Origin: Allosphingosinicella indica
Lineage (GTDB): Bacteria; Pseudomonadota; Alphaproteobacteria; Sphingomonadales; Sphingomonadaceae
Direction of reading: 5' to 3'
Length of the DNA: 64,000 nt
NCBI RefSeq assembly: GCF_900177405.1
Contig: NZ_LT840185.1
Span: 2,595,501 to 2,659,500, forward strand
The notes under the pieces were generated by a model. It did no database searches, was not told the origin of the DNA, and saw only the letters and a list, made by a program, of their open reading frames with translations. Shown piece after piece: positions 2,299-11,207 of this stretch. Each line of letters starts with the position of its first letter. The stretch's first letter is position 1. Both the position numbers and the translations under genes were made by a program.

Positions 2299-3345
2299 CT
2301 AGGCGGTGGCCTCGACCGCCGGCGATGCGGCGGCTCGGCGCTTGCCGAGCTTGGTCAGCAGGTGTCGCGCGAGCATCAGCGGCGGCATTCGCAGCCAGTG
2401 CGAGCGGACGTAGAAAGCGAAGCGGAGGGCCTTGCGCGTCTCTCGCCCCCAACCGTCACGCGCGACAAGCCGCGCGGCGAACAGGCGGTCGACGATGCTC
2501 AGCCGTCCTGCGAAGCCATGATCGACGGGCGTACCATAGAGACGATGCGACAGCCGGAGAGCGCGGCGCACCGCGGGTGCGAGCTGGTGCAGTGCCGCCT
2601 GCTCTATGAGCGCCTCGCGGAACGCAGGACAATCGAACTCGCGCAGCAGCCGGTCGATGTCCCACAGGTTGCGGAGCCCGCCCCCCAGGTCGCCGTCGGC
2701 AAAGAGATGCGCGGCGGAGTGGAGGACGAGATCGGGTGGCGAGAAGACGCTGAGCCCGCTCTCCAGACGCGTCGCATCGCGGACCAAAGCGTCGGCATCG
2801 GGCGTCGGGCGCGCGGTCGGCGGCAGGATGGTGTGGTGCACATCTGCCATCCGGTCGCGCTCCTTGTGGATCAGCGGCGGCAGCTCGTGCATCCAGCGGC
2901 GATAATAGAGATCGTCATAGGCGTCCGCCTTGACCCATTCCCACCCGGCGGCAAGCAGCGCGGCCTGCGCCGCATCGAGATGGCGCGCGGGCACCAGCAG
3001 ATCGAGATCGCCGATATAGCGCCCTTCCCCGGCGTCCAGCCCGGCCGCGGCATAAGCGGTGCCCTTTAGCAGCACGACCGGCATGCCGAGCGGCGCAAGC
3101 GCACGGCGCGCCATCTCCGCTTCCCAGAGTGCGAGCGTCCGCCCGCGCGCGCAGTCGCGGCGCGCGTCGTCAAGGATCGCGGCGATCTTTCCTTCCGGCG
3201 CGAACGGCGCGGTGCGGATTGCGAGCGCAGCAAGCAATTGCTCGGCGCGTGCGACGGCGATCATCGCTTCCCAATCCGTCGGCGAAAGGCCACGAACGCT
3301 CTGCGGCTTGCGAAGTGCGCGAATCAGGCAGCGCGCCGGACTCAT
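2299..3345 (-). CDS. Nucleotidyltransferase family protein (NTP_transf_5 type)
   Basis: A 348-residue protein with a minimal nucleotidyltransferase fold of the NTP_transf_5 kind. The conserved VVLLKGTAYAAAGL (about residues 90-103) is followed by GRYIGDLDLLV with the paired acidic residues D113 and D115 expected to bind metal. Such proteins recur beside HPr-kinase-like and PqqD-like proteins, including in some lasso-peptide clusters (paeninodin type). The ATG at 3345 overlaps the stop of the kinase gene as ATGA. The modified substrate is unknown; co-transcription with the kinase and PqqD-like gene suggests it acts on the same client molecule (inference). Confidence 0.82.
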   Translation of the reverse strand: MSPARCLIRALRKPQSVRGLSPTDWEAMIAVARAEQLLAALAIRTAPFAPEGKIAAILDDARRDCARGRTLALWEAEMARRALAPLGMPVVLLKGTAYAAAGLDAGEGRYIGDLDLLVPARHLDAAQAALLAAGWEWVKADAYDDLYYRRWMHELPPLIHKERDRMADVHHTILPPTARPTPDADALVRDATRLESGLSVFSPPDLVLHSAAHLFADGDLGGGLRNLWDIDRLLREFDCPAFREALIEQAALHQLAPAVRRALRLSHRLYGTPVDHGFAGRLSIVDRLFAARLVARDGWGRETRKALRFAFYVRSHWLRMPPLMLARHLLTKLGKRRAAASPAVEATA

Positions 3346-4205
3346 GCCGCCTCGCGCCACAGTTGTTCAACCATCGCGACGGCTTCGTCGGTGCTGCCAT
3401 AATCGACCGCGCGCGCCGGGAGCTTCACCAGCGCGGTGAGCGCTGCAAAGGCCGGCTCGCCGAGCGCGACATAATTGGTCGATGCCTGGGTCAGCCGCAT
3501 GAACAGCTCCGCCTCGCCGACCGACCGCACCTCGGCGGGCCAGTCATGGCCGAAGCGCGGGAACAGGATCAGCGCGGGCCGCGCGGGTTCTCGCATGCGC
3601 GCGACGGCCTCTACCGAAGGGCGGAGATGGCGGATCGTCCCTTTCGGCGTGCCGTAGAGCTGCGGCCCGAACCGCTCTTCGGGGAGCATCGCGCGCATCG
3701 CGTCGATCGCGCTATTCTTGAGGCTGACCGCGCGCGGGAACGGATGCAGCAGTCCGTCGTCGAGGCCGAGCAGCGCGAATTCGTCGCCCATGAAGCGCCA
3801 GCCACGCTCGCCCAGGATCGCGGACAGCGTCGATTTCCCCGCACCCGAGAGGCCCGTGAGCAGCAGGGCGCGCCCGTCCCGCTCGACGCTCGCGGCGTGG
3901 AGCAGCAGATACCGCTTCTGCCCCAGCGCCATCTGAAGGTTCATCCCCATCTCGGCGGCGAGCAGGCCGTGAGCGATCGAGAGCGGCGCGGCTTCGGGCA
4001 GCATGAAATCGCCGCGGATCGCGATCGAGGGGCGGATCCAGCGCCGCCACGGACGCTCCGCCTCCAGCCGCACGGTGAAATCGGCGACCGCATCGGCGTC
4101 GTTATAGCCCGCATAGAGATGCCGAAGAGTGTCGACCGGCGCGCTCCATTCGGATCCAATTCGGAACGTGACCGGGCCAACCGTGAGGCGGAGGCTGTGC
4201 TTCAT
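3342..4205 (-). CDS. HprK-related kinase A
   Basis: A 287-residue protein related to the C-terminal kinase domain of HPr kinase/phosphorylase. The P-loop GLSGAGKST lies at residues 118-126, preceded by LLLHAASVERDGRALLLT and followed by FMGDEFALL (about 138-146), the acidic motif typical of this family. The N-terminal 100 residues do not match HprK's regulatory domain. No HPr, EI or EII gene is nearby, so the target is unlikely to be HPr. In lasso-peptide clusters related kinases phosphorylate the precursor's C-terminal serine. The gene overlaps the PqqD-like gene upstream (4202-4205) and the nucleotidyltransferase downstream (3342-3345), implying translational coupling. Confidence 0.88.
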   Translation of the reverse strand: MKHSLRLTVGPVTFRIGSEWSAPVDTLRHLYAGYNDADAVADFTVRLEAERPWRRWIRPSIAIRGDFMLPEAAPLSIAHGLLAAEMGMNLQMALGQKRYLLLHAASVERDGRALLLTGLSGAGKSTLSAILGERGWRFMGDEFALLGLDDGLLHPFPRAVSLKNSAIDAMRAMLPEERFGPQLYGTPKGTIRHLRPSVEAVARMREPARPALILFPRFGHDWPAEVRSVGEAELFMRLTQASTNYVALGEPAFAALTALVKLPARAVDYGSTDEAVAMVEQLWREAA

Positions 4206-4477
4206 GCCCGCTGCACCAGACCCGCAGCCTCCAGCTCGCCGAGCCGCGCCGCAAGCGCCTCGACCGCGCCCTCGCCGAGATCGAACCGCGCGGCAAGCCG
4301 ATCGGCGAGCGCCGATGCGTCGGCGGGGGCTTCGGCAAGCGCGTCAAGGATTTCCGGCGCGGGCGATGCAAGGAAATGCGTCAGCCCCGAGGGGCGATGG
4401 AAGAGCAGGGTCAGCCCGTCGAGCGGGACAACCTGCACCGCATCGGCGGGATCGGAACGATAGACGGGGCCGGACAT
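4202..4477 (-). CDS. PqqD-like peptide chaperone (HPr-rel-A system)
   Basis: A 91-residue protein of the PqqD/RRE fold, which binds leader peptides and presents them to modifying enzymes. The N-terminus (VQVVPLDGLTLLFHRPSGLTHFL) gives the three-strand part and the C-terminal two thirds a helical part ending in LAARLGELEAAGLVQ, a typical arrangement. It sits 11 bases after the stop of the Tat-signal protein and overlaps the kinase gene by four bases. This placement between a small exported protein and a kinase suggests that it delivers that protein, or another peptide, to the kinase and nucleotidyltransferase (inference). Confidence 0.8.
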   Translation of the reverse strand: MSGPVYRSDPADAVQVVPLDGLTLLFHRPSGLTHFLASPAPEILDALAEAPADASALADRLAARFDLGEGAVEALAARLGELEAAGLVQRA

Positions 4478-4488
4478 GCCGGCACCGC

Positions 4489-4896
4489 TTAACGCGACAT
4501 CTGCAGCGAGGCGTAGCAGGTGAAGCCGCTCATGCCCTGCTGCAGACGGCGGATGTAATTGGCATAGGCCTGGCTCGCCTCGGCATCCATGCCGGCGGGC
4601 GCATAGCCGCTGTTCAGCAGCCGCTTAGCCTCCTGGCCGGTGATCGGGCGGCGCGCGGGCGGAAAGGCCCCCGGCGTCCCCGGCGCAACCAGGCTGCCAT
4701 CGGCAGCGATGTAGCTGCCGCCGGATTGCGGCGTCGGCACCGGGATCTGGCAGTTGAGCACCGATCCCGCCGTCTGCGCCAGCGCGGGGCGCACCGTCAC
4801 CACCGTCGAGGCCGCGACCGCGCCGAGCATCAGCACGCTCCGCCGGCTCGCCGCCGCGAGATCGATCTCCTGCGCCTTGCCGCTGTCTTCGCTCAT
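4489..4896 (-). CDS. Small Tat-signal exported protein, candidate client of the HPr-rel-A system
   Basis: A 135-residue protein, unrecognised as a family. It has a twin-arginine-type signal, ASRRSVLMLG at residues 16-25, a hydrophobic core, and a likely cleavage site after PALA (residue 40). The mature part has two cysteines (C49 and C127), a Pro/Gly-rich stretch and a helical segment around EASQAYANYIRRLQQ, and it ends in LQMSR with a penultimate serine. It is the first gene of the operon with the PqqD-like, kinase and nucleotidyltransferase genes. ATG 4896 is chosen; ATG 4908 would add four residues. Whether it is processed or phosphorylated is inference. Confidence 0.65.
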   Translation of the reverse strand: MSEDSGKAQEIDLAAASRRSVLMLGAVAASTVVTVRPALAQTAGSVLNCQIPVPTPQSGGSYIAADGSLVAPGTPGAFPPARRPITGQEAKRLLNSGYAPAGMDAEASQAYANYIRRLQQGMSGFTCYASLQMSR

Positions 4897-4992
4897 GCCC
4901 TCGGCCATAATCCCAGCGGCCTTTCACAAGCGTAAAGCTGCGGCAAGACGGCGATGGTGGCGGTATCATCGCGGGACGGATAGGAGGCGGAC

Positions 4993-6285
4993 ATGAACAG
5001 CGTATCGCCGCGCCGCCTGATCATCGCCGCCGCCTTCGTCGCGGCAGGGCTGGCGCTGGCGCTGTCGGCGGGCGCCCCGGTCGCGGCGGCGCTGGTCGCG
5101 CTCATCGCCGGCCTTGCGGCGGCGGCACTGGCATGGCCGGGCGACGGCGGCCCCCGAAGCGACGACGGCCAGCGCGCCGCCCTGTCCACCCTCCCCGACA
5201 CCGCGCGGCTGCTGGAGGCGATCGACGAGCCGATGCTGGTGGTGCGCGATCGCCGCGTGATCGCCGCCAATTCGGCGGCGCGCGCGGTGCTCGGCGATCA
5301 TATCGAGGGCGTCGACGTCCGCCTCGCCATCCGCCACCCCGCCGCCGCCGAGCAATTGTCCGCCGAGCGGCCGGAATCGAGCGTCACCCGCGCCGATCTG
5401 ATCGGCCTCGGCGAGCGCGACCGGCGCTGGCAGATGGCGACGAGCCGGATGGAGGACGGCAGCCATCTTGTCCGCTTGACCGACCGCAGCGCCGCGCACG
5501 CCTCCGAACAGATGCGCGTCGATTTCGTCGCCAATGCCAGCCACGAGTTGCGCACCCCGCTCGCCACCGTGCTCGGCTTCCTCGAGACGCTGCGCGACGA
5601 CGATCAGGCCGCGGGCGATCCCGCGACGCGAGGCCGCTTCGTCGACCTCATGTATGCCGAGGCGCGCCGCATCCACCGGCTGGTCGACGATCTCATCTCA
5701 TTGTCGCGAATCGAGGCCGAGCGATTCAGCCCGCCGCGCGAATCGGTGCCGCTGCTGCCGCTGGTCGAGGAGGTCCGCGTCGGCGCAGGGCAATTGCTCG
5801 AAGCGCGCGGCGGTCGGATCGAGGTCGTCGCTGATGCCGCCCAGCCCGTAGCGCTCGGCGATCGCACCCAGCTCCTCCAGCTCCTCCAGAACCTCATCGT
5901 CAACGCGATCAAATATGGCCGCGCGGGCGAGACGGTGACCGTCCGCTTCGAGGATGCGGGTGCCGAAATGCTGCGCGTCACCGTCATCGACCGCGGCGAA
6001 GGCATCGAGCCCGATCATATACCGCGCCTCACAGAGCGATTCTATCGCGTCGATCCCGGCCGCAGCCGCTCAATGGGCGGCACCGGCCTCGGCCTCGCGA
6101 TCGTCAAGCATATCGTCGGGCGGCACCGCGGCCAGCTCGATATCCGCTCGACTCCCGGAGAGGGCACGCAGGTCTCGGTGTTGCTTCCGCGCGCCGCCGG
6201 ACCGGGGCCGATGTCATCAAAGAGTCACGTAAACGTCACACAGGGCACTCGAAACGACCCTAGCGAGGCGCCGGGCATGGATTGA
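4993..6285 (+). CDS. phoR: Phosphate regulon sensor histidine kinase PhoR
   Basis: A 430-residue inner-membrane histidine kinase that phosphorylates PhoB when phosphate is low. Two short hydrophobic segments cover residues 9-48, a PAS-like region follows (about 70-165), then HisKA with the phospho-acceptor H184 in NASHELRTPL, and an ATPase domain with N box (NLIVNAIKYG), G1 (DRGEGI) and G2 (GGTGLGLAIV). The ATG at 4993 follows a strong AGGAGG ribosome site. The gene is divergent from the HPr-rel-A operon and heads phoR-pstCAB-phoU-phoB. The last 25 codons, after the kinase fold ends, overlap the Pho box that should drive pstC. This tail (SSKSHVNVTQGTRND) is probably non-functional as protein. 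Confidence 0.93.
   Translation: MNSVSPRRLIIAAAFVAAGLALALSAGAPVAAALVALIAGLAAAALAWPGDGGPRSDDGQRAALSTLPDTARLLEAIDEPMLVVRDRRVIAANSAARAVLGDHIEGVDVRLAIRHPAAAEQLSAERPESSVTRADLIGLGERDRRWQMATSRMEDGSHLVRLTDRSAAHASEQMRVDFVANASHELRTPLATVLGFLETLRDDDQAAGDPATRGRFVDLMYAEARRIHRLVDDLISLSRIEAERFSPPRESVPLLPLVEEVRVGAGQLLEARGGRIEVVADAAQPVALGDRTQLLQLLQNLIVNAIKYGRAGETVTVRFEDAGAEMLRVTVIDRGEGIEPDHIPRLTERFYRVDPGRSRSMGGTGLGLAIVKHIVGRHRGQLDIRSTPGEGTQVSVLLPRAAGPGPMSSKSHVNVTQGTRNDPSEAPGMD
6211..6243 (+). promoter_or_regulatory. Pho box (three PhoB half-sites) upstream of pstC
   Basis: Three 7-base PhoB-type half-sites recur with an exact 11-base period: ATGTCAT at 6211, GAGTCAC at 6222 and ACGTCAC at 6233, separated by the A/T-rich spacers CAAA and GTAA. 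This matches the known Pho-box architecture (consensus CTGTCAT plus 4-base spacers). It lies inside the 3' end of phoR, 39 to 84 bases before the possible pstC starts. PhoB would activate pstCAB-phoU-phoB from here, giving positive autoregulation of phoB. Confidence 0.8.
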
Positions 6286-6326
6286 CCGTCGGCCCGCCGG
6301 GGCAATCGAGGATTTCGACCGAGGCC

Positions 6327-7712
6327 GTGACGACCTTCAGCCTGTTCTTCCTGCTGCTCGGCTTGGGCGCGATCGCCTGGGCGAGTGCCCGTGCCCGCGC
6401 GCTGGCGCTGGCCGGCCCCGCGCCGCAGCGCGCGCATTCGCTGCCCGGCTATCACGGCTGGTATGTTGCCTTGTGGGCGCTGGTGCCCGCCGCCGCCTTC
6501 CTGATCGTCTGGAGCCTGCTCGCGCCCGGTCTCGCGATGGACGCCGCGCTGCATCACCCCGCCGCCGCATCGCTTCCCGCCGCGTCGATCGACCGCGCCG
6601 CCGCGCTCGCAGAGGTCCGCGCGCTGGCGGAGGGCAAGCTGCAATTCGCCTTCCGTCCCGAATCCAAGGCGCTCGCCGAAGCCTATCGCGACGCCGCCGC
6701 CACCTATGGTTGGGTCGCCGCAGCAGTCACAGTGCTGATCGCCTTCGCGGGCGGCGCGTTCGCCTTCACGCGCATCGGCCCTGCCTTCCGCGCCCGCTCG
6801 CGCGTCGAGCGGCTGGTGATGGCGGCGCTGCTCACCGCATCGCTGATCGCGATCCTCACCACCGTCGGCATCGTCGCCTCGCTGCTGTTCGAATCGCTGC
6901 GCTTCTTCAGCAAGGTCTCGCCGATCGAATTCCTGTTCGGCACGCAGTGGAGCCCGCAGACCGCGATCCGTGCCGATCAGGTCGGATCGTCGGGCGCGTT
7001 CGGCGCCATTCCCCTGTTCTGGGGCACGATCTTCATCGGCGCGATCATCGCGATGATCGTCGCCATTCCGCTCGGCTTGATGAGCGCGATCTTCCTCACC
7101 CAATATGCGAGCCCCCTCGCCCGCGCCTGGCTGAAGCCGATCCTCGAGGTGCTGGCCGGTGTCCCCACCGTGGTATACGGCTATTTCGCCGCGCTCACCG
7201 TCGCGCCTGCAATCCGCAGCTTCGCCGCTGCGGTCGGCATTCCCGGCGCGTCGTCCGAAAGCGCGCTCGCCGCCGGGCTGGTCATGGGAGTGATGATCAT
7301 TCCCTTCGTCTCCTCGATGGCCGACGATTCGATCGCCGCGGTGCCGCAGGCGATGCGCGACGGCAGCCTCGCGATGGGCGCCACCAAGTCCGAGACGATC
7401 AAGCAAGTGCTGCTCCCCGCGGCGCTTCCGGGCGTCGTCGGCGGGGTTCTGCTCGCGGTCAGCCGCGCGATCGGCGAGACGATGATCGTGGTGATGGCCG
7501 CGGGTCTCGCCGCCAACCTCACTGCCAATCCGTTCGCCAGCGTGACCACGGTGACGACCCAGATCGTCCAGCTCCTTACCGGAGATCAGGAATTCGACAG
7601 CGCCAAGACGCTCGCCGCCTTCGCGCTGGGGCTGGTACTGTTCATCGTCACCTTGCTGCTCAACATCGTCGCGCTGCGCGTCGTGCGGAAATATCGGGAA
7701 GCTTATGAATAG
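6327..7712 (+). CDS. pstC: Phosphate ABC transporter permease PstC
   Basis: Inner-membrane permease subunit of the high-affinity phosphate importer PstSCAB. It is about 461 residues, longer than the enterobacterial protein of about 320, because of extra N-terminal membrane segments (from about residue 1 to 160) as usual in alphaproteobacteria. The C-terminal half has the ABC permease fold, with the EAA-like loop DGSLAMGATKSETIKQVLLP and seven or eight hydrophobic segments in total. The GTG at 6327 is preferred; a TTG at 6282 overlapping the phoR stop would add 15 non-hydrophobic residues and would place the start nearer the Pho box. It overlaps pstA by eight bases. No pstS is present in the window. 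Confidence 0.92.
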   Translation: MTTFSLFFLLLGLGAIAWASARARALALAGPAPQRAHSLPGYHGWYVALWALVPAAAFLIVWSLLAPGLAMDAALHHPAAASLPAASIDRAAALAEVRALAEGKLQFAFRPESKALAEAYRDAAATYGWVAAAVTVLIAFAGGAFAFTRIGPAFRARSRVERLVMAALLTASLIAILTTVGIVASLLFESLRFFSKVSPIEFLFGTQWSPQTAIRADQVGSSGAFGAIPLFWGTIFIGAIIAMIVAIPLGLMSAIFLTQYASPLARAWLKPILEVLAGVPTVVYGYFAALTVAPAIRSFAAAVGIPGASSESALAAGLVMGVMIIPFVSSMADDSIAAVPQAMRDGSLAMGATKSETIKQVLLPAALPGVVGGVLLAVSRAIGETMIVVMAAGLAANLTANPFASVTTVTTQIVQLLTGDQEFDSAKTLAAFALGLVLFIVTLLLNIVALRVVRKYREAYE

Positions 7713-8973
7713 CGCCGTTGAACGCAGCCCGACCGACTGGAAGGGCGCGGCGATGCAGCGCCGCATCCGCCGCCGCTATGCTGCGGAGCGCCGCTTCCGG
7801 CTCATGGGGCTGCTCGCCATCCTGCTGTCGGTCGGCTTCCTCGCCTTCCTGCTGCTGACGATGGTCGGCAATGGGGCGCGGGGCTTCACGCAGACCGAAA
7901 TCCGCCTGCCGGTCGATTTCGCGCGCTCGTCGCTGATGATCGATCCGGCGCTGCTCGCCGGCGACGCGCGACAGGCCAATGCGGCGCTCGCCGCGGCCGA
8001 TTTCCAAGGCGTCACCGATGCTGCGGCGAAGGCGGCCTATGGCGAGACTGGCGACCGGCTCTTGTCCGATGGGGCATGGGTCGCTTTGCGCGATGCGGCG
8101 CGCGACGATCCCGCACTGCTCCAGCGTCAGGCCGATCTCTGGGTGCCCGCCGCGACCGACATCGACCTGGCCGCCAAAAGCAGCGGCAGCGCAGAGGCGG
8201 AAAAGATCCACGCTGGGCTCGAAGCGCGCGACGCGGTCCGCACCGGGCTCAACTGGAGCTTCCTCACCGGCGCGGATTCGACCGATCCGACCCTCGTCGG
8301 CATCTGGGGCGCGTTCAAGGGATCGCTCCTCACCATGCTGGTGACCATCGCCCTCGCCTTCCCGATCGGCGTGCTGGCCGCGGTCTATCTCGAGGAATAT
8401 GCGCCGCGGAACCGCTGGACCGACCTCATCGAAGTGTCGATCAACAATCTCGCGGCGGTCCCCTCGATCATCTTCGGCCTGCTCGGCCTCGCGGTTTTCC
8501 TCAACGTCATGCACCTGCCGCGCTCCGCCGCGCTGGTCGGCGGGATGACGCTGGCACTGATGACGATGCCCGTCATCGTCATCGCCGGCCGCAACGCGAT
8601 CAAGTCGGTGCCGCCCTCGATCCGCGACGCGGCGCTCGGCATCGGCGCGTCGCCGGTGCAGGTCGTGTTCCACCATGTCCTGCCGCTGGCGCTGCCCGGT
8701 ATCCTCACCGGCACGATCATCGGCATGGCGCGCGCGCTGGGCGAGACGGCACCACTGCTGATGATCGGTATGCGCGCCTTTATCGCGACGCCGCCCAGCG
8801 GGATCACCGATCCTGCCACCGTTCTTCCCGTCCAGATCTTCCTCTGGTCGGACGAGGTCAGCCGCGGTTTCGTCGAGAAGACGTCGGCGGCGATCATCGT
8901 CCTTCTGGCCTTCCTCCTCGCGATGAACGGCCTCGCCATCTATCTTCGCAACAAGTTCGAGCGCCGCTGGTGA
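7705..8973 (+). CDS. pstA: Phosphate ABC transporter permease PstA
   Basis: Second permease subunit of the phosphate importer, 422 residues. A first membrane segment (about residues 34-55) is followed by a long hydrophilic, probably periplasmic insertion (about 60-190), absent from short PstA proteins but common in alphaproteobacteria. The permease fold then runs to the end, with the EAA-type loop [21 protein letters not shown]. The start overlaps the end of pstC, and the stop at 8971-8973 lies directly before the pstB start, so the subunits are made together. Confidence 0.92.
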
Positions 8974-8975
8974 AA

Positions 8976-9797
8976 ATGATGACAGACATGAGCATGAGCG
9001 ACATCGCCGCGCACCAGCGCGCCGATCACAGCCACGACGGCGATCCGCGCATCCGCGCCGAAAATGTCAGCGTCTTCTACGGCAACAAGAAGGCCATCGA
9101 CGACGTCTCGATCGACATCGATCAGGACAATGTCACCGCCTTCATCGGCCCGTCGGGCTGCGGGAAATCGACGTTTCTCAGGACACTCAACCGGATGAAC
9201 GACACGATCGCCTCGGCGCGTGTTGAGGGCCGGATCACGCTCGATGGCGAGGACATCTATTCCTCCGGTATGGACGTGGTCCAGCTCCGCGCCCGTGTCG
9301 GCATGGTCTTTCAGAAGCCCAATCCGTTTCCGAAATCGATCTTCGACAATGTCGCCTACGGTCCGCGCATCCACGGCCTCGCGACCAGCAAGTCCGAGCT
9401 GGAAGGCATCGTCGAGCGGTCGCTGAAGCGCGCCGGCCTATGGGACGAGGTCAAGGACCGCCTCGCCGATAGCGGCACCGCGCTTTCCGGCGGCCAGCAG
9501 CAGCGACTCTGCATCGCCCGCGCGATCGCGGTCGATCCCGAAGTGATCCTGATGGACGAGCCCTGCTCGGCGCTCGATCCGATCGCCACCGCCAAGATCG
9601 AGGAACTGATCCACGAGCTGCGCGGGCGCTACGCGATCGTGATCGTAACCCACAACATGCAGCAGGCCGCGCGCGTCTCGCAGCGCACCGCCTTTTTCCA
9701 CCTCGGCCATCTGGTCGAATATGGCGACACCTCTGCCATCTTCACCAACCCGACCGAGACGCGGACCAAGGATTACATCACCGGCCGGTACGGCTGA
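8976..9797 (+). CDS. pstB: Phosphate ABC transporter ATP-binding protein PstB
   Basis: ATPase subunit of the phosphate importer, 273 residues from ATG 8976 (alternatives GTG 8970 and ATG 8979, 8988 or 8994). Walker A is GPSGCGKST, the Q-loop is [11 protein letters not shown], the ABC signature is LSGGQQQRL, Walker B is [13 protein letters not shown], and the switch histidine is in [10 protein letters not shown]. These are all hallmark PstB sequences. The open frame continues upstream through pstA in another frame, but homology begins at about [16 protein letters not shown]. It lies in operon with pstCA and phoU. Confidence 0.95.
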
Positions 9798-9808
9798 GGA
9801 GCATCACG

Positions 9809-10516
9809 ATGGCGACAACGGGACATACGGTCAAAGCCTTCGATCAGGACCTCGACGAGCTGCGCGCGACCATCGCGGAGATGGGCGGGCTGGCCGAGGA
9901 AGCGATCCGCGAGGCGATGCGCGCGCTGGTGCAGCGCGACAGCGAGGGTGCTCTTCGCGTCGTCGAGGCGGACCGGCGGATCGACGCGCTGGAAACCGAG
10001 CTGGAGCGCGCCGCCGTCCAGCTCATCGCGCTGCGCGCGCCGATGGCGGACGATTTGCGCGAGGTGATCGCGGCGTTGAAGATCGCAAGCGTCGTCGAGC
10101 GGATCGGTGATTATGCCAAGAATATCGCCAAGCGCGTGCAGGTGATCGGCGAAGCACCGGTTATCGAGCCGCTGTCGCTACTCCCGGAAATGGCGCGGAT
10201 CGCGGGCGAGATGGTGCACAGCGTGCTCGACGCCTTCGCCGCGCGCGATGCCGAGAAGGCGCTGGCGGTCTGCGAGCGCGACCGCGCGGTCGACGATTTC
10301 TACAATTCGATCTTCCGCACGCTCCTCACCTTCATGATGGAGAATCCGCACAACATCACACCGGCGACGCACCTCCTCTTCGTCGCAAAGAATCTCGAGC
10401 GGATCGGCGATCACGCCACCAACGCCGCCGAGATGGTCTATTTCGCGGCTACCGGCTTGCATGTTGCGGACCGCCCGCGCGGTGCTGCTACGGAAACGGT
10501 CGGCAGCGATGGCTAA
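9809..10516 (+). CDS. phoU: Phosphate signalling accessory protein PhoU
   Basis: A 235-residue all-helical protein made of two PhoU repeats. Each repeat contains a metal-binding ExxxD-type motif, seen as ASVVERIGDYAKNIAKR (about residue 92) and KNLERIGDHATNAAEM (about residue 196). PhoU couples the state of the Pst transporter to PhoR and keeps the Pho regulon off when phosphate is plentiful. It starts 12 bases after pstB with a GAGGA ribosome site, and its 3' end overlaps the phoB start by eight bases. Confidence 0.94.
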   Translation: MATTGHTVKAFDQDLDELRATIAEMGGLAEEAIREAMRALVQRDSEGALRVVEADRRIDALETELERAAVQLIALRAPMADDLREVIAALKIASVVERIGDYAKNIAKRVQVIGEAPVIEPLSLLPEMARIAGEMVHSVLDAFAARDAEKALAVCERDRAVDDFYNSIFRTLLTFMMENPHNITPATHLLFVAKNLERIGDHATNAAEMVYFAATGLHVADRPRGAATETVGSDG

Positions 10517-11207
10517 GGGCCGCATCCTGCTGGTCGAGGACGACAGCGCGCTCGCCGAGCTGCTCGTCTATCATTTCACCCGCGAGGAGTTCGAGGTCGA
10601 GCGCACCGCGGACGGCGAGGAGGCAATGCTGCTCGCGACCGAGAACCCGCCCGACATCGTGCTGCTCGACTGGATGATCGAGGGCGTGTCGGGGATCGAG
10701 GTCTGCCGCCGCCTTCGCCGCCATTCGGAGACCGCCAACGTCCCGATCATCATGCTCACCGCGCGCGGCGAGGAGACGGATCGCGTCCGCGGCCTGGAGA
10801 CGGGTGCCGACGATTATGTTACCAAGCCGTTCAGCCCGCGCGAGCTGGTCGCGCGCGTCGGCGCGGTGCTGCGCCGGGTCCGGCCCGCGCTCGCCGGCGA
10901 ACAGCTCGGCTATTCCGATCTCGAGATGGACATCGTCAGCCACAAGGTAAAGCGCGGCGGACAGACCGTCGCGCTCGGGCCGACCGAATTCCGCCTGCTG
11001 CGCCACTTCCTCGAACATCCCGGCCGAGTCTTCTCGCGCGAGCGTCTGCTCGACGCGGTCTGGGGGCACGATTCCTACATCGAGCCGCGCACCGTGGACG
11101 TGCACATCCGGCGGCTCCGGAAAGCGATCAATCTGGAAGGACGACCGGACATCATCCGCACCGTCCGTTCGGCCGGTTACGCGCTGGATGCCGACGGCAC
11201 CGCCTGA
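10509..11207 (+). CDS. phoB: Phosphate regulon response regulator PhoB
   Basis: A 232-residue OmpR/PhoB-type DNA-binding response regulator. The receiver domain has acidic residues D11 and D12, the phospho-acceptor D54 in VLLDWMIEG, and the conserved lysine in DDYVTKPFSPREL. A winged-helix domain follows, with LGPTEFRLLRHFLEHPGR and RTVDVHIRRLRKAI. It binds Pho boxes such as that at 6211-6243. ATG 10509 overlaps the end of phoU; the open frame begins at 10461 but the extra residues do not belong to the receiver fold. It is the last gene of the Pho operon. Confidence 0.94.
   Translation: MAKGRILLVEDDSALAELLVYHFTREEFEVERTADGEEAMLLATENPPDIVLLDWMIEGVSGIEVCRRLRRHSETANVPIIMLTARGEETDRVRGLETGADDYVTKPFSPRELVARVGAVLRRVRPALAGEQLGYSDLEMDIVSHKVKRGGQTVALGPTEFRLLRHFLEHPGRVFSRERLLDAVWGHDSYIEPRTVDVHIRRLRKAINLEGRPDIIRTVRSAGYALDADGTA

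Follow-up and report, generated by a model that had tools for sequence, protein, structure and literature searches.

A four-gene HPr-rel-A unit in Allosphingosinicella indica as a putative leader-guided tagging system for a Tat-exported protein

Four coupled genes on the minus strand of a 64,000-nucleotide stretch of the Allosphingosinicella indica genome (contig NZ_LT840185.1, positions 2,595,501 to 2,659,500; hereafter the window) encode a small protein with a twin-arginine translocation (Tat) signal, a PqqD-like protein, an HprK-like kinase and a nucleotidyltransferase-fold enzyme. By analogy with the tailoring of lasso peptides, this set probably acts as a tagging system that is guided by a leader and dedicated to a single Tat-exported protein. 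The assignment of the Tat protein as the candidate substrate, referred to here as the client, is well supported by comparative genomics and is likely because the protein is inherited together with the other three genes (the trio). The comparisons directly established which genes these are and their order, that they are co-inherited, that the signal is specific and the motif conserved, that the catalytic residues are intact and that client type segregates with kinase clade. The trio itself was already annotated; what is newly added is the tie between it and the Tat protein. The unit spans positions 2299-4896 and is composed of the following features.

4489-4896, minus strand: client, a Tat-signal protein of 135 residues, from open reading frame (ORF) and sequence reading
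4507-4518, minus strand: codons for Cys127-Tyr-Ala-Ser130 of the client, the C-x-x-S motif, with Ser130 as the proposed modified residue
4202-4477, minus strand: PqqD_rel_X, a predicted leader-binding protein of 91 residues resembling a RiPP recognition element (RRE; RiPP, ribosomally synthesized and post-translationally modified peptide); 66.9 bits against TIGR04353 (cut-off 35)
3342-4205, minus strand: HprK_rel_A, the proposed client serine kinase, 287 residues; 252.9 bits against TIGR04352 (cut-off 200)
2299-3360, minus strand: NTP_transf_5, a nucleotidyltransferase-fold enzyme of 353 residues; 166.6 bits against PF14907 (cut-off 31.2)

The junctions between the four genes, as read from the sequence and its ORFs, are overlaps or near contacts, with the PqqD_rel_X gene overlapping that of the kinase. 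Two starts are available to the client, at 4896 (135 residues) and at an ATG at 4908 (139 residues), of which the former is likelier since M5 of the 139-residue numbering is nearly invariant in the client alignments A1 and A3. The twin-arginine signal, RRSVLMLGAVAASTVVTVRPALA, is followed by a small mature domain and the C-terminal tail FTCYASLQMSR. This protein matches no Pfam family above cut-off and nothing in NCBIfam at E up to 1, and the PqqD-like protein scores 19.5 bits against PF05402, below the cut-off of 23.4. The initial annotation, made from the sequence of the window, had described four coupled minus-strand genes, PqqD-like, HprK-like and NTP_transf_5 products, a P-loop in the kinase, a Tat protein ending in Met-Ser-Arg and a PqqD/HprK pair corresponding to the annotated HPr-rel-A set, which has no assigned function; all of these points are borne out, the P-loop being GLSGAGKST with its lysine at residue 124.

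The order of the four genes is kept in 76 of 80 loci found by their kinase in named relatives, the other four being cut by contig ends, and conservation of the unit, which the initial annotation had proposed to check, is far above chance. To this can be added co-inheritance at the level of whole genomes. One set of 149 family genomes was searched twice, for the kinase family and for client alignment A1; each was found in 45 (the kinase above its cut-off) and the two lists were identical, these being related genomes and so not 149 independent trials. Kinase and client are both missing from the other 104, including the same-genus genomes G053 and G129. In two genomes (G042 and G122) the client remains at phoR whilst the trio lies ~163 and ~279 kb distant, and in a third (G040) client and PqqD genes are on a different contig from those of the kinase and nucleotidyltransferase; as the partners in these three genomes are unlinked yet paired, the pairing of kinase and client does not require linkage.

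A similar arrangement is found across Pseudomonadota, in a wider set of 80 loci with a kinase above cut-off that were chosen from larger match lists and include eight from the window's own family. A rule-set for Tat signals that was not trained on these loci identified a signal in the client slot of 50 of the 80, compared with 1-4 of 80 in each of six control slots. This detector is too strict, and a slot signal profile was trained on 50 slot ORFs, three wrong picks (at L211, L215 and L219) being excluded from its seed. At 70 loci the profile matched in the strand of the kinase, between 150 and 900 bp upstream of it. A client is present just upstream of the PqqD gene in 75 of the 80: these 70, one with its signal match at 974 bp (L220), three with a Tat-type client ORF recognised by reading (L163, L164 and L181) and one whose client body is present by likeness, its signal having been lost off the contig end (L192). 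Three of the others (L171, L172 and L188) have neither client nor PqqD match at the kinase, the genome of L188 carrying a PqqD and client pair elsewhere. A trio lacking its Tat protein, which the initial annotation had held to tell against its reading, was not clearly found at these loci. The nearest cases are two intact trios, L154, where a short client-like ORF without C-x-x-S follows the nucleotidyltransferase gene, and L222, where the contig reaches only 645 bp beyond the kinase match on its upstream side and no client is present in that stretch. The earlier proposal of a stand-alone system, without lasso enzymes and with the Tat protein as its likely client, is supported. An NTP_transf_5 gene lies just downstream of the kinase on the same strand at 67 of the 80 loci and anywhere in the stretch at 74. 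At L178 (9181-10878), L175 and L179 a TPR-sulfotransferase gene directly after the kinase replaces it, and L166 has both.

The client signal follows the pattern RRxLLKxxAxAAPVxxTLxSxxAxA, in which the twin-arginine motif, the hydrophobic stretch (h-region) and the A-x-A site of a Tat signal are all present; the second arginine is invariant in the 65 rows of alignment A3. A 36-position profile of this signal (A4) was searched against 35 kinase-bearing and 35 control genomes, the latter with no kinase above cut-off and all chosen by hand. At E <= 1.2e-4 it matched 31 of the kinase-bearing and none of the kinase-free genomes, and at E up to 0.01 it matched 32 and 4, respectively; A4 contains signals from 11 of the 35 kinase-bearing genomes, which match by construction, so that the informative results are the other 24, the single matches and the controls. 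There is a single match per genome except in G499, G050 and G1108, the additional match in both G050 and G1108 being weak (E above 0.001). The second match in G499 (E 1.2e-4) falls on a client-like ORF of type II (types are defined below) at L241:6622-7254, an apparent orphan with no kinase, PqqD or nucleotidyltransferase match within the surrounding 14 kb. The signal, especially its h-region (PVxxTL), appears more conserved than expected of transport alone, and for this reason the segment may serve also as the leader for PqqD_rel_X.

Within the mature protein, a candidate acceptor is suggested by conservation. In the window's family Cys127 and Ser130 are present in 101 of 101 distinct orthologues, as is Cys49. 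The initial annotation had instead favoured the C-terminal serine of Met-Ser-Arg as acceptor, which is rejected here for want of conservation: across the 101 orthologues this position is mostly proline, 61 ending in MPR, 90 in R or G and a single one in S, whereas Ser130, four residues earlier and followed by five residues in the window's client, does not vary. Two client types can be distinguished in the wider set. Type I, to which the window's client belongs, has a tail of the [ST]-C-x-x-S-[FLI] kind within ~30 residues of the C-terminus, whilst type II clients for the most part carry C-[TS]-x-S-[GA] directly after the signal together with a block resembling C-x-G-x-[ST]-P-G-[YFW]. Clients reach ~290 residues, and at the other extreme a 74-residue mini-client (L215:7032-7256) consists of a signal and a mature part of ~12 residues ending in SCNASLI. 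Among 75 clients (including that of L154 and excluding the contig-cut L192), the spacing C(x)2S near either end is the most enriched, in 61, with other spacings in 7-13 except C(x)6S, which reaches 37 owing to an additional serine, four residues further along, in type II. C-x-x-S occurs anywhere in 65 of the 75, compared with a mean of 24.9 (standard deviation 3.7, largest 38) in 500 shuffles.

Client type also follows the phylogeny of the kinase. On a tree of 81 rows built by a quick method, type I (34) and type II (40) are split by one branch with an SH-aLRT (Shimodaira-Hasegawa-like approximate likelihood ratio test) support of 95, and none of 500 shuffles scored as low (shuffled mean 24.7). 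Regular expressions and inspection by eye were used to assign the types, which renders the type I serine count partly circular; L205 and L214 were reassigned to type II, as were L153, L176, L181, L182 and L203 from 'other', L155 was reassigned to type I, and L154 and L184 were left unlabelled on the tree. Five clients from other loci, searched in Pfam and/or NCBIfam, had no family above cut-off. An AlphaFold2 (AF2) model of the window's client, used as a search query, retrieved no known fold with E under 0.001.

Both enzymes look active, judged by catalytic residues that are conserved in all aligned rows, some of these rows being near-identical. In the kinase H103, K124, D141, E142, K163, K188 and N244 are present in 192 of 192, and in the nucleotidyltransferase K99, G100, R114, D118, D120, D173, H175 and H176 in 183 of 183. 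The SG-x-TH residues of PqqD_rel_X (G31, T33 and H34) are kept in 170-172 of 179 aligned rows. The AF2 model of the nucleotidyltransferase is of high confidence (predicted local distance difference test score, pLDDT, 94.9), and its nearest folds in the PDB are MenT1 (E 1e-4), a nucleotidyltransferase toxin, and ANT(2''). LnuA and FKRP, the latter a phospho-alcohol transferase, are weaker matches above E 0.001, and MenT1 alone passes that threshold. The PF14907 model shares with these four proteins its fold and a D-x-D pair, but differs in having no PDB sequence match at E up to 5. The kinase, similarly, shares the P-loop core of HPr kinase/phosphorylase, with a conserved histidine, P-loop lysine and acidic residues and a weak likeness to solved HPr kinases over the P-loop region, but it scores 16.1 bits against TIGR00679, under the cut-off of 240.

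The unit belongs to the annotated HPr-rel-A set and is not a lasso cluster. The kinase and PqqD-like protein exceed the cut-offs of TIGR04352 and TIGR04353, and a public record already carries the HPr-rel-A names, the client of Sphingomonas parapaucimobilis being entered there as 'hypothetical protein'. The annotation names no substrate, in contrast to the Tat client, signal profile and C-x-x-S motif added by this analysis, and a literature search on HPr-rel-A, HprK-related kinase and NTP_transf_5, with subscription journals and preprints outside its scope, found no paper. A lasso cluster was rejected on the cyclase model NF033535, which has no match above cut-off in the whole genome. The initial annotation had stated that neither cyclase nor protease is nearby; the first part thus extends to the genome, whilst for the second no B2 leader protease is among the neighbours identified in ~0-11.2 kb of the window, no search with B2's own model having been made.

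Although the unit is not a lasso cluster, it likely works in a manner analogous to lasso tailoring. Two reviews (PMC9266682, PMC8498205) report phosphorylation of the C-terminal serine in lasso precursors by the HprK-like kinases PadeK and ThcoK, and by PsmK in the case of pseudomycoidin; PsmN, an annotated nucleotidyltransferase, is reported to be required for one or two hexoses on the pseudomycoidin phosphate. The review literature adds that PqqD-like B1 proteins bind leader peptides and that a sulfotransferase gene has been reported in lasso clusters, and one review allows for glycosylation of pseudomycoidin by host enzymes after nucleotidylation (PMC9266682 / PMC8498205). As described there, paeninodin (PadeK/ThcoK) and pseudomycoidin (PsmK/PsmN) tailoring share with the unit an HprK-like kinase, a PqqD-like protein, an annotated nucleotidyltransferase, a serine at or near the C-terminus of the substrate and, in some cases, a sulfotransferase. 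The unit differs in having no lactam cyclase above cut-off, a Tat-signal protein as client and a client serine that is not terminal. Its gene content (leader binder, encoded substrate and modifying enzymes) and co-inheritance are consistent with a RiPP-like system.

From these comparisons we infer the binding, phosphorylation, second modification, export and final function of the client. PqqD_rel_X would bind the client's signal, acting as leader, and present the client to HprK_rel_A, which would use ATP to phosphorylate the C-x-x-S serine (Ser130 in the window). NTP_transf_5 would then build on this phosphate, most likely adding a hexose, as the analogy with PsmN suggests, or otherwise a nucleotide; both steps are modelled on PsmK and PsmN. 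Finally, the finished client would be exported by Tat and act in the envelope, often in association with exopolysaccharide synthesis; the XrtA/PEP-CTERM exopolysaccharide markers at 25 of the 80 wider loci (see below) suggest a role in the envelope or matrix. The Tat pathway transports proteins that have been folded or processed beforehand in the cytoplasm, and it is this property that places modification before export in the proposed sequence of events.

A number of observations weigh against this scheme. Its chemistry rests on analogy, and the lasso kinases modify the final residue of their substrates, whereas here ~1 to 25 residues follow the motif serine. Ten of the 75 clients wholly lack C-x-x-S, which leaves a single universal acceptor unproven, and the type II motif lies at the opposite end of the mature protein beside further conserved serines. 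The client model has a confident core at residues ~60-120 of 139 and is of low confidence elsewhere, including the tail. At some loci NTP_transf_5 is absent or another enzyme takes its place. With regard to the signal, A4 matches four of the 35 controls, all weakly (E 0.0017-0.006); the positive in G766 (E 0.003) does not exceed them in strength, and three kinase-bearing genomes (G543, G768 and G829) are missed, even though their loci (L164, L176 and L163, respectively) do hold clients.

An alternative that retains the Tat protein as client is that its final mark is a nucleotide, either through a kinase-primed transfer of a nucleoside monophosphate or through direct nucleotidylation by NTP_transf_5. 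The D-x-D pair with a third aspartate (D118, D120 and D173) and the fold are nucleotidyltransferase-like, and ANT(2'') and LnuA, by their PDB titles, and MenT1 are nucleotidyl- or adenylyltransferases. This outcome is nonetheless rather unlikely, as FKRP, the weaker fold match, is a phospho-alcohol transferase, and as PsmN, the sole characterised lasso parallel, yields a hexose on phosphoserine in vivo, although the review itself allows for host glycosylation after nucleotidylation.

A more doubtful possibility is that the Tat protein is a functional partner, such as an envelope sensor or matrix protein, whilst the trio modifies a small molecule or another peptide, co-inheritance then reflecting a shared pathway. 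The unit does belong to larger processes: in the sphingomonads 69 of the 76 relatives have a divergent phoR no more than 900 bp from the Tat gene, and elsewhere XrtA/PEP-CTERM exopolysaccharide markers, counted by BLAST to one representative each within 4.5-18 kb per locus, accompany 25 of the 80 wider loci, 21 of these having at least two. Against the partner explanation stand the leader binding described for PqqD-like B1 proteins in the review literature, the tracking of kinase clade by client type with one change, the near-specificity of the signal profile to kinase-bearing genomes and the retention of PqqD with the client when both are split from the kinase in G040, although PqqD stays with the kinase in G042 and G122. 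Least probable is that the conserved cysteine is the modified or functional residue, by periplasmic disulfide or thioester chemistry, with the kinase regulatory: the invariance of both Cys49 and Cys127 fits a disulfide, but the cysteine is replaced in L177, L202 and L204 (by Ala, Ala and Ser) with the serine retained, a loss that counts as one event because their kinases form one clade.

Several features surround the unit. In the window it is flanked on one side by nadA and genes for a DUF4230 protein and a metallo-β-lactamase (MBL)-fold protein, and on the other by phoR-pstCAB-phoU-phoB, which runs divergently from it at 4909-11207. The downstream MBL-fold gene is ruled out as a fifth part, its best match lying within 4 kb of the kinase in none of 75 named relatives with room for it. 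A search for an E. coli-type pho box, allowing three mismatches, gave one distant match, at or below chance, and none beside the unit. A separate short HprK-like ORF is present elsewhere in the genome. A gap of 1.3-1.5 kb separates the Tat and PqqD genes at 16 of the loci from named relatives, of which 14 bear the title Sphingobium; in the two that were read (L059:8476-9660 and L078:8475-9653) a GT4-type glycosyltransferase-like ORF occupies it, that of L059, the one searched in Pfam, matching GT4-type models. An additional ORF between the PqqD and kinase genes (L042:9382-10011) resembles a small DUF559/Vsr-type endonuclease. Near the unit in 22 of the 80 wider loci, 21 of these with type II clients, is a gene for a trypsin-like serine protease (e.g. 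L182:6713-7498), a possible processing enzyme. A Vibrio alfacsensis plasmid (L239:4013-5112) has a type II-like client and, by reading, an unannotated divergent PqqD-like ORF before the kinase, and a plasmid search for NTP_transf_5 relatives gave four records, each beside an annotated HprK-related kinase A.

In the libraries and literature searched, HprK_rel_A and the PqqD protein that accompanies it are annotated without a substrate. A dedicated client, a recognition signal and one candidate residue can now be proposed for them, and these open the system to a direct test in E. coli using four genes. If this is correct, the Tat signal doubles as the leader of an RRE, and the tailoring toolkit of lasso peptides would be one special form of a broader machinery for tagging proteins, linked to the biology of the envelope and of exopolysaccharide. 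It can tentatively be suggested, with less confidence than for the unit itself, that a Pseudomonadota-wide class of systems, comprising an RRE, a serine kinase, a phosphate-extending transferase and sometimes a sulfotransferase, places a phospho-sugar or similar group on one Tat-exported protein, with the Tat signal as recognition leader. Where the unit lies among polysaccharide genes, such a serine, once tagged, could serve as an anchor or primer for the polymer.

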